From: Haloferax marisrubri
Lineage (GTDB): Archaea > Halobacteriota > Halobacteria > Halobacteriales > Haloferacaceae
Reading direction: 5' to 3'
Assembly: GCF_001469875.2 (NCBI RefSeq)
Contig: NZ_LOPW02000022.1
Span: 259,829-323,828 of the forward strand
DNA length: 64,000 nucleotides
This document shows, piece after piece, positions 42,057 to 44,951 of this stretch. The notes under the pieces are model-generated. The model had not been told where the DNA came from and searched no databases. It saw only the letters and a program-made list of their open reading frames with translations. The number at the start of each line of letters is the position of its first letter. The stretch's first letter is position 1. A program made the translations under genes and the position numbers.

Positions 42057-42332
42057 ATGGAGAAGAACGTCGGCGGCTACGACCGCATCGCGCGCGCCGT
42101 CCTCGGACCGGTGCTCATCATCGTCGGGGCGGCGGGTCTCGCGGGCTTCCTGACCATCGCGGCGGGGACCCTCGGACTCGTCGTCGCGGTCGCGGCGCTC
42201 CTCGTCGGAGCGGTCCTCGCGACCACGGCGGTCACCCAGAAGTGCCCGCTCAACGAGCTGTTGGGCTTCAACACCTACGAGGGCGCGGCGACGACCGAGA
42301 CCGAATCCGCGGGCAAGCCGCGCGCGCAGTAA
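42057..42332 (+). CDS. DUF2892 membrane protein
   Basis: This 91-residue protein begins with MEKNVGGYDRIARAVLG, the DUF2892 start, and has two transmembrane segments (about 14-32 and 38-58) followed by CPLNELLGFNTY, a conserved cysteine motif. Members are sometimes linked to rhodanese or sulfur-transfer proteins. No such partner is seen here. Confidence 0.87.
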   Translation: MEKNVGGYDRIARAVLGPVLIIVGAAGLAGFLTIAAGTLGLVVAVAALLVGAVLATTAVTQKCPLNELLGFNTYEGAATTETESAGKPRAQ

Positions 42333-42460
42333 GCTTTTCTTCGACCCGATACTCGAACCCGGCCGCGACCGACGAGGGCGGAAATACCGACCTTCCCATT
42401 ATCAGATACGATAGCTAGCGGGGAACAGTTTTTGCATCGCTCCAGAGACCAGCGGTAGCG

Positions 42461-43798
42461 ATGACGCCACCACTCCCGACGCGGGAACAGCTCCCGGACG
42501 ACCTGCTCGAGCGGGCCAACTGGGTCGGGTGGCGAACACAGACGTGCGACGGTGGGGAGACGGTGGTTCCCCGAGACGCGGCCCACGGCGGGCCCGCATC
42601 AGCGACCGACGCTTCAACGTGGGCGACGTTCGACGAGGCGCTCGCGTCCGCGCGGGACGGCCGCGCCGACGGGGTAGGATTCGTTTTCACCGACGACGAC
42701 CCGTTCGTCGGTATCAAACTCGACAAGTGCCGCGACGGCGAGACCGGAGCGGCCGACGGGTGGGCGCGGGCGGTCGTCGACCGACTCGACTCCTACACCG
42801 AACTGAACTCCTCGGGAACGGGCTACCGCGTTATCGTCCGCGGGACGCTCCCGTCGGGAAGCGCCCGAGCCGAGTCCCTCGAACTCTCAGACGATGCGCG
42901 GTTCTGCCCCGTGACCGGAGACCGCGTCGACGGCACGCCCGCGGCGGTCGCAGAACGGGGCGACGCCCTTGCGGCGATTCACGGCGCGTACTTCGAAGCC
43001 GACCCGGAACCGTCGCCGACGCCGCCGGTCGAGCCGGCCACCGCAATCGACTCGGCCAACCCAGTCGCTCCGAGTTCGGACCGAACGCCCGCCGACGCGC
43101 GTCTCGACGAGATGAGCGGCCCGGGCAACGACCTCGCGGACGACGAGGTCGTCCGCCGCGCCTCGAACGCCGTGAACGCCGTGAAGTTCACCCACCTGTG
43201 GCGGGGCGACGCCGGCGGCTACGACGACCACGACGAGGCGGACGCGGCGCTGTGTTCGATTCTCGCGTTCTGGACCGCCGGCGACGCGCGACAGATGTGC
43301 CGCCTGTTTCGGGACTCCGGGCTCTTCCGACCGAAGTGGGACGAAGTCGCCCACGCCGATGGCTCGACCTACGGCGCGAAGACGGTCCAGCGAGCGATTC
43401 GGGAGACGAGTGAGTACTACGACCCGTCCGGCCGGTCCAGCGCGGTTCGGCGGTCGCCGACGCCGTCGGACGACGACCGAAAGCGGGACGAACGCGCCGA
43501 CGACGCGGCGAGTGAACCGCAGGAATCGAATGAACCGCAAGGACCGCACGGGCCGCCGCCGACCGCCGCGTCCCCGGTCGGCGAGCGCGGGGCGTTCGAC
43601 CGTTTCAACGAACTCCGGGCGCGGCTCGACGACGTCGTCGGCGAAAACGAGCGACTCCGCGACGAACTCGAAGCCGAGCGCGAGCGACGGCGCGACCTCG
43701 AAGCGAGCGTGGGCGACGGCGGAGAAGAAGCGGGAGGCGGAGAGACGGACGAACGCTCGGGACGCGGCTGGTCGCTGTTCGGCTGGCTTCGGTCGTGA
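42461..43798 (+). CDS. NrS-1-type primase-polymerase relic
   Basis: The 445-residue protein has an N-terminal region resembling the prim-pol domain of phage NrS-1-type polymerases (RANWVGWRTQ, GVGFVFTDDDPFVGIKLDKC, SYTELNSSGTGYRVIVRG) and a middle helix-bundle region (about 230-325; KFTHLWRGDAGGYDDHDEAD, LCSILAFWTAGDARQM, LFRPKWDEV). A charged linker and coiled coil (about 380-420) follow. The family usually has GIDLD at the catalytic site. Here it reads GIKLD, so one of the two metal-binding aspartates is replaced by lysine and polymerase activity is doubtful. No viral gene surrounds it. A domesticated factor is the likely explanation. Confidence 0.72.
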   Translation: MTPPLPTREQLPDDLLERANWVGWRTQTCDGGETVVPRDAAHGGPASATDASTWATFDEALASARDGRADGVGFVFTDDDPFVGIKLDKCRDGETGAADGWARAVVDRLDSYTELNSSGTGYRVIVRGTLPSGSARAESLELSDDARFCPVTGDRVDGTPAAVAERGDALAAIHGAYFEADPEPSPTPPVEPATAIDSANPVAPSSDRTPADARLDEMSGPGNDLADDEVVRRASNAVNAVKFTHLWRGDAGGYDDHDEADAALCSILAFWTAGDARQMCRLFRDSGLFRPKWDEVAHADGSTYGAKTVQRAIRETSEYYDPSGRSSAVRRSPTPSDDDRKRDERADDAASEPQESNEPQGPHGPPPTAASPVGERGAFDRFNELRARLDDVVGENERLRDELEAERERRRDLEASVGDGGEEAGGGETDERSGRGWSLFGWLRS

Positions 43799-43847: not shown

Positions 43848-44951
43848 TCACGATTTGAGTCCGCTTCCGGTGAGCGGCACGACCACGTCGGCGTCGCGGT
43901 CGAGGACGCCCGAGAGCCGCAGTTCGCGGAGCGCCGCGGGCGCGACGGCGCAGGTCGGCTCCGTGTAGAAGCCGTGGCGGTGGAGCCTGTCGAGTTCGTC
44001 TTCGACCGCGTCGGACGACAGCGCGATGGCGTCGCCGCCGGTGTCGGCGAGCGCCTCGTGAATCTCGGCCTCGCGGACGGGTTCGAGAATCTGGATGCCG
44101 TCGGCCACGTCGTTGGTCTCGTCGGGCGTGTGGTGACGGGCGTCGGCGATGGGCGAGTAGCCGGCGGCCTGCGCGCCGTACAGTTCGGGCATTCGGTCGG
44201 TCCAGCCCGCCTCGTAGAGCGCGCGGAAGCCGCGGTACGCGCCGAGGAAGAGCGTCCCGTGGCCGAGCGGCGTGACGACCGCGTCGGGGACCGACCAGTC
44301 GCGCTGGGCGGCGATTTCGTAGGCGACGGTGGCCGTGCCCGCGAAGAACGCGGGGTTCCACGCGTGGCTCGCGTACCACGCGTCGTCGGCCTCGACTGCC
44401 TCGACGCAGGCGTCGGTCACGTCCTGTCTGGAGCCCTCGATTCGGACCGGCTTGGCCCCGGCGCGCTCGATGGCGCGGACCTTCGAGGGCTTGACCGACG
44501 CGGGCACGTAGATTTCGGCGTCGATGCCGGCGCGGGCGGCGTAGGTGGCGACGGCGGCCCCCGCGTTGCCCGAGGAGTCCTCGACGACCCGCTCGACGCC
44601 GAGTTCGGACGCGAGAGACAGCATCGTCGTCGCGCCGCGGTCCTTGAACGAACCGGAGGGGAAGACGTACTCCAGTTTGAACGAGGCCTCCCACTCCGCC
44701 GCGTCGACGAGGGGTGTCATCCCCTCGCCGAGGCTGGCGTGCGGCTCCGTCGGGAGGAACTCGTCGAACGCCCAGAGGCCGTCGCGGTAGTCGAGGTCGG
44801 CGTCGTCGGGGGTGGCCGCGGACGGTGACGGGTCGGCCGCGAAGTCCAGCGGCTCGCCGCAGGTACAGCGCCAGCGCCACGCGTCGTAGGTCTCGCCGCA
44901 AGCGTCGCACGCGAGTCGGAGCCGAGCGGGGAGGTCGGGTGGTGTCGTCAT
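43848..44951 (-). CDS. thrC: Threonine synthase-like PLP enzyme
   Basis: This 367-residue fold-type II PLP enzyme starts with a zinc ribbon (CDACGETY...CTCGEP, 15-32), often seen in archaeal threonine synthases. The PLP lysine is in FPSGSFKDRGA near 102, the phosphate loop is SSGNAGAAVATY near 125 and the C-terminal end has VPLTGSGLK. It probably converts O-phosphohomoserine to threonine, but haloarchaea encode several paralogs, some of which act on other substrates. The threonine deaminase gene is 6 kb away. Confidence 0.85.
   Translation of the reverse strand: MTTPPDLPARLRLACDACGETYDAWRWRCTCGEPLDFAADPSPSAATPDDADLDYRDGLWAFDEFLPTEPHASLGEGMTPLVDAAEWEASFKLEYVFPSGSFKDRGATTMLSLASELGVERVVEDSSGNAGAAVATYAARAGIDAEIYVPASVKPSKVRAIERAGAKPVRIEGSRQDVTDACVEAVEADDAWYASHAWNPAFFAGTATVAYEIAAQRDWSVPDAVVTPLGHGTLFLGAYRGFRALYEAGWTDRMPELYGAQAAGYSPIADARHHTPDETNDVADGIQILEPVREAEIHEALADTGGDAIALSSDAVEDELDRLHRHGFYTEPTCAVAPAALRELRLSGVLDRDADVVVPLTGSGLKS

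Follow-up and report, generated by a model that had tools for sequence, protein, structure and literature searches.

The phage NrS-1 primase-polymerase (prim-pol) N300 (PDB 6a9w, 6jon, 7rr3, 7rr4; PMC8718748) combines a prim-pol domain with a helix-bundle domain (HBD), whose residues R249, K251 and Y261 are required for primer initiation but dispensable for extension. The PrimPol-PV1 supergroup (PMC5862659) comprises AEPs of mobile elements with a relaxed motif II histidine, which they share with the dead clade described below; they keep the motif I acids nearly universally, which the dead clade does not. The integrative conjugative element ICETh2 of Thermus thermophilus carries a prim-pol (Ppol; PMC9751324) that has been linked to limiting invading DNA, a defence role cited in PMC8718748. 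Ppol is reported as an active enzyme of a different family and not as a dead, domesticated copy.

The conjugation primases TraC of RP4 and Sog of ColIb belong to a different primase superfamily. Being element-encoded and conjugation-linked (PMC4595007), they offer a parallel in function to the active relatives; the protein described here is predicted to be inactive and lies off any element. In the open-access literature we found no description of the locus between the DUF2892 and threonine synthase (thrC) genes or of the haloarchaeal stand-alone prim-pol family, nor of prim-pol pseudoenzymes that selection has retained at a constant position in a cellular genome.

Protein layout and active site

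The window, i.e. the whole 64,000-nucleotide stretch of Haloferax marisrubri DNA that was analysed, contains the following features at this locus:

42057..42332, + strand: DUF2892 (YgaP-like_TM) gene, bordering the insertion site on the left and abutting thrC in 7 Haloferax without the prim-pol gene
42398..42460, + strand: promoter-proximal region resembling that of the active Haloferax relatives L041/L044 (upstream alignment)
42461..43798, + strand: whole gene, ATG to TGA, for a stand-alone protein of 445 aa with a putatively degenerate prim-pol domain, HBD and coiled coil; eight syntenic open orthologs
42485..42994, + strand: prim-pol (AEP) domain, about aa 9-178 (phmmer to NrS-1 N300; AF2 pLDDT mostly 84-94)
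42710..42730, + strand: motif I GIKLDKC, K86-x-D88 instead of D-x-D (alignment with NrS-1 and orthologs)
42806..42829, + strand: NSSGTGYR, degenerate SPS dNTP loop and R123 for motif II His115 (NrS-1 alignment)
43229..43426, + strand: HBD, Pfam NrS1-1_pol-like_HBD, aa 257-322 (Pfam match, omega 0.22)
43583..43714, + strand: 44-residue helix, aa 375-418, predicted parallel coiled coil (4-3 heptad pattern; AlphaFold model)
43760..43795, + strand: C-terminal tail GRGWSLFGWLRS, near-invariant among dead orthologs and also in active Haloferax relatives
43848..44951, - strand: threonine synthase gene, bordering the insertion site on the right (Pfam; synteny comparison)

Sequence and fold searches both recover the NrS-1 prim-pol, in agreement with the family assignment made in the preliminary description. 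The window protein matches the NrS-1 N300 structures in phmmer at 4e-32 and the Pfam NrS-1 HBD at 2.3e-28 (98.3 bits, cut-off 27.9), and PHROG DNA primase families are found with E-values down to 3e-66. The AlphaFold model has a mean pLDDT of 76, with values of mostly 84-95 in the folded domains; searched with this model, Foldseek retrieves 6jon, 7rr4 and 6a9w (NrS-1 N300) at 6e-20 and next the pRN1 primase. The prim-pol fold is predicted to be intact, and the order and fold of prim-pol and HBD are those of NrS-1. In contrast to NrS-1, which has an SF3-type helicase C-terminus, no helicase domain is seen by Pfam or in the AlphaFold model; instead, the HBD is followed by a disordered linker, the 44-residue helix and a short aromatic and basic tail, and the gene lies at a cellular core locus. 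The heptad positions of the helix are L385-L389-V392-N396-L399-L403, with L385 and L399 invariant among the 30 family members compared, and the protein may dimerise via the parallel coiled coil. Coiled coil and tail are conserved between dead and active forms. After the variable linker, the aromatic/basic tail reads WSLFGWLRS in Haloferax and is SVWGRTKRLFG-like elsewhere; it could act as a signal for secretion or for docking to a partner.

The active-site residues were read from an alignment with NrS-1 (PMC8718748). Lys86 (codon 42716-42718, in GIKLD) replaces the first aspartate of motif I, while D88 remains; at this position NrS-1 and every one of the 43 relatives with intact motifs show G[VI]DLD or IDLD. 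The substitution had been noted before, together with the claim that everything else in the domain is retained, which does not hold: the motif II histidine (NrS-1 His115) is R123, the dNTP loop S108-P109-S110 of NrS-1 corresponds to N116-S117-S118, TKVP (motif TKxP) has become TVVP with valine for the conserved lysine, and LELY has become LELS, with Ser143 for a tyrosine conserved among active relatives. E141 is retained and invariant. The helix bundle is indeed kept, with R290, K292 and Y304 aligning with R249, K251 and Y261 of NrS-1; the K251 equivalent is alanine in two of the eight orthologs. As most of these residues are preserved, DNA binding through the HBD is plausible. With the prim-pol fold and the HBD in place, and the DxD pair, the motif II histidine and the SPS loop missing, the window protein would be a pseudoenzyme relative of NrS-1-type prim-pols and not a working prim-pol.

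Orthologs, insertion history and selection

Eight Haloferax genomes, the window's included, carry the gene at the same site with complete flanking synteny, which bears out the proposed core position between the DUF2892 gene and threonine synthase. Besides the window's genome, the named carriers are H. sulfurifontis, massiliensis, gibbonsii, prahovense, denitrificans and sp. Q22, and the flanking proteins are mostly 93-100% identical to the window's. None of the eight orthologs retains both DxD aspartates and the histidine or shows GIDLD with intact motifs, and one DxD aspartate is left in each: motif I is K-x-D in one, E-x-D in two, T-x-D in one and D-x-G in four. The lysine, whose fixation at the locus had been considered, is thus replaced by glutamate or threonine, or the second aspartate is lost instead, and this variation rules out Lys86 as a fixed functional substitution. 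The motif II histidine (arginine in seven, glutamine in one), the TKxP lysine and the LELY tyrosine are missing from all eight, with LELS in every one. Losses common to all orthologs indicate that the inactivation predates the diversification of this Haloferax group, while the differing fates of the two DxD aspartates suggest that metal binding is no longer under selection.

A polymerase or primase that is still active through a rewired metal site, formed by the remaining aspartate and Glu141, could account for the invariance of E141 and for the one DxD aspartate left in each ortholog, and the motif II histidine is relaxed in PrimPol-PV1 enzymes as well (PMC5862659). We consider this very improbable, as a DxD to LxL change abolishes the activity of PolpTN2 (PMC5862659), changes of S108 cripple NrSPol (PMC8718748), and the aspartate that is lost differs by lineage, a pattern to be expected once metal binding is no longer selected.

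In seven other Haloferax genomes the site is empty, with DUF2892 directly abutting thrC and no intervening gene. Together with the eight syntenic carriers, this is most simply accounted for by a single ancestral insertion. In the tree the eight dead copies form one clade (support 100/100), sister to the active Haloferax element copies L041/L044 (90/83) and within a Haloferax clade (100/98). The best reading of these comparisons is a single insertion at a core site, followed by inactivation and then by domestication. The gene had been called an orphan, which is true at the locus but not genome-wide: the window's genome has two further paralogs with intact motifs elsewhere, and seven of the eight carriers hold at least one. 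In the remaining genome, G007, the dead gene is present and neither an active paralog nor a coupling ATPase was detected.

To quantify selection, omega was computed over four phylogenetically independent ortholog pairs and compared with 300 neutral simulations that used the gene's own four-fold-site spectrum. The dead gene has an omega of 0.44 against a neutral mean of 1.26, with none of the simulations as low, and no stops were observed where 3.7 would be expected under neutrality. By domain, omega is 0.22 for the HBD, 0.39 for the prim-pol domain (0.39-0.50 across the estimates made), 0.47 for coil and tail, 0.56 for the disordered region and 0.69 for the linker; in the active sister copies it is 0.21 for the prim-pol domain and 0.09 for the HBD. 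Constraint on the dead catalytic domain is relaxed but real, and the HBD is the most constrained part. With one core-site insertion, clade-wide catalytic loss and later purifying selection, the exaptation suggested in the preliminary description is well supported.

Pseudogene decay was rejected on the neutral simulation. A trapped element gene in slow decay, with no present function, was already disfavoured and appears improbable: the catalytic site has eroded differently in each lineage, linker and disordered region are weakly constrained (omega 0.56-0.69) and divergence is fast, but all eight orthologs are open with in-frame indels only, the omega values of the gene and particularly of its HBD are far from neutral, and coiled coil, tail and proximal promoter are conserved.

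Averaged over the eight orthologs, protein identity is 78%, compared with 93-99% for the neighbouring proteins, and dS is 0.29, about twice the 0.10-0.15 of the neighbours. The window sequence falls with G007 in the left-flank tree, a grouping absent from the gene tree. The doubled dS and this conflict point to a contribution of recombination or weaker codon constraint to the divergence, with a hint of allele exchange at the locus; positive selection is not claimed.

Relatives on conjugative and integrated elements

Stand-alone relatives were classed as active when they have intact motifs (G[VI]DLD and the motif II histidine), by sequence alone; all 43 copies of this class keep both, two from the window's genome included. 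The direct homologs on haloarchaeal plasmids and integrated elements (e.g. Natrinema DC36, Halorussus limi and Haloferax lucentense plasmids) are 43-57% identical to the window protein and share its architecture at 390-470 aa. They differ from the window gene in keeping G[VI]DLD and SPSGTGxH, in their VirD4/VirB4-like neighbours and often in iteron-like repeats, none of which the latter has. The active relatives on Natrinema, Halorussus, Halorubrum and Haloferax plasmids are annotated 'hypothetical protein', and the genes just upstream of them conjugal transfer, TraM recognition or VirB4; the Pfam matches of the neighbouring ATPases are TraG-D_C, TrwB_AAD_bind, T4SS-DNA_transf and CagE_TrbE_VirB, several of them scoring no better than around the cut-off.

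In the fetched loci, a VirD4/VirB4-like ATPase lies near 40 of the 43 active copies; one of the three copies lacking it (L051) is at a contig end. Outside the Haloferax type, 30 of 36 active copies follow the ATPase gene in the same orientation, at 320-450 bp from its end. No such ATPase was found near any of the eight dead loci. From the number of coupling-ATPase loci per genome, zero to about four, chance linkage was estimated at 1-2%. The active Haloferax-type copies have a convergent TraG/VirD4-like gene within about 1-6 kb and adjoin ordinary chromosomal genes, e.g. for an amidase or a dehydroquinase. They probably sit near the edge of the element, a location from which a gene would easily be left behind. 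The source is not viral, contrary to what had been assumed: the nearest relatives are the conjugative plasmid and integrated-element proteins, the best relatives on viral contigs are at most 41% identical, and matches to phage records span only the N-terminal region of primase-helicases.

In the window's genome (L050, contig C16), a fragmented coupling-ATPase gene lies upstream of a paralog missing the usual first residues, and in L098 (G004, C24) two frames share an active-type prim-pol gene that has been split; these loci have the appearance of elements in decay. L042 (G005) is a copy of the Haloferax type with intact motifs and seven TACACCC/GGGTGTA repeats, and no coupling-type ATPase was found in its genome.

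Such iteron-like repeats, two to seven within 350 bp upstream, occur at all seven active Haloferax-type copies (L040-L046), but at none of the eight dead copies. They were first spotted by eye and then checked by an unbiased 8-mer test against 200 shuffles. In three of the seven copies the enrichment exceeds every shuffle, and in a fourth only five shuffles are not exceeded; it fails in the other three, where the repeats are more divergent. The repeats of other genera differ from those of the Haloferax type and are specific to the element; many of the gaps ahead of the active prim-pol gene contain them, others do not. Between the coupling-ATPase and prim-pol genes, many haloarchaeal plasmids also have a conserved CCAACTAGTATAG...GGGG...CCGTTGG element (L061-L092; e.g. 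L063:6601-6967). An exact-pattern search of Haloferax genomes reported no CCAACTAGTATAG, though an exact pattern may miss close variants; alignment places it upstream of an H. lucentense plasmid copy. The gap is a possible replication origin or transfer origin (oriT), which would make the active protein the primase of the element. Upstream of the dead genes only about 60 bp of proximal sequence resemble L041/L044, and the iterons further upstream are absent.

A second putatively inactivated copy is found in H. larsenii and H. elongans (L047, L048; L048:6413-7795). It reads GVALD, with the first aspartate changed to alanine, and DSA or DLA for SPS, while the histidine is kept. It occupies another chromosomal site, collinear between the two species over 7.5 kb at 92.5% identity, branches elsewhere within the Haloferax clade and has an omega of 0.17. 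In H. elongans, as read from the ORFs, its neighbour on one side is a sensor kinase-like gene; on the other, a glutamate dehydrogenase-like gene follows at a distance of one or two ORFs. The linker of these copies contains a His/Asp-rich repeat (HDHSD...). Neither copy has a VirD4/VirB4-like ATPase nearby or the TACACCC/GGGTGTA repeats upstream. The inactivation appears independent of that at the DUF2892-thrC locus, and parallel capture and inactivation make an accident less likely.

Possible role of the retained protein

We propose that the gene for a stand-alone prim-pol of a haloarchaeal conjugative or integrated element became stranded between DUF2892 and thrC in an ancestor shared by one Haloferax group, and that it kept its proximal promoter there but not the conjugation genes and iterons. 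Catalysis would have been lost early, with the DxD then eroding differently per sublineage, and purifying selection would have retained the gene afterwards, most strongly in the HBD. The product would fold as a prim-pol, bind template DNA via the HBD and dimerise via the coiled coil, but be unable to polymerise. As a trans-dominant competitor, it may occupy priming sites or pair in heterodimers with the active primase of related elements that enter the cell, and may thereby dampen their replication or establishment.

Origin, inactivation and retention appear in, or follow directly from, the sequence comparisons; interference with the priming of related elements would act by DNA binding and dimerisation. 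The conserved HBD and coiled coil are the parts a competitor needs and argue for interference, as do the element origin, the repeated occurrence and the fast divergence expected of a conflict gene. Against it, at least five of the eight carriers also hold an active Haloferax-type copy, so that the dead copy does not exclude such elements, the fast evolution may reflect relaxed constraint, G007 lacks an active paralog, and two orthologs have lost the K251 equivalent. The whole account, from capture through early inactivation and retention to trans-dominant interference, is therefore put forward tentatively, at somewhat less than an even chance.

A host role unrelated to mobile elements, i.e. 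a non-catalytic protein binding ssDNA or forks, or a regulatory one (fork protection, repair scaffold, transcription control), is a serious rival, even if we consider it rather unlikely. It would explain why G007 retains the dead gene and why the HBD is the domain under the strongest constraint. Archaea keep inactivated polymerase paralogs, which also counts for it. The confinement of the gene to one Haloferax group, with seven congeners lacking it, argues against such a role, and a divergence much faster than that of neighbouring housekeeping genes would be unusual for a core replication function. The protein might also serve the elements by modulating active prim-pols as a subunit without catalysis of its own (control of copy number, priming help). 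The intact-motif paralogs in most carriers and the common coiled coil and tail, which would permit hetero-dimers, are consistent with this, but it seems improbable with the gene in host core synteny and not on elements, and kept in G007 beside no active paralog.

PADLOC matched no defence model, and hence no known defence family, to the window protein. Interference with conjugative elements would fit the origin of the gene better than the anti-viral role considered previously. That Haloferax has at least twice independently captured, disabled and kept a conjugative-element prim-pol in its core chromosome as a dominant-negative inhibitor of related elements, with the primase of the element turned against plasmids and ICEs in a way unlike catalogued defence systems, is a wider claim that we regard as doubtful.

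If interference is true, cells can make an immunity factor out of the primase by which a mobile element replicates, a reading that can be tested in Haloferax, an archaeal genus amenable to genetics. The overlooked 'hypothetical' family couples a stand-alone NrS-1-type prim-pol with conjugation ATPases and iteron-like regions across haloarchaea, and is a lead on how conjugative elements prime DNA.
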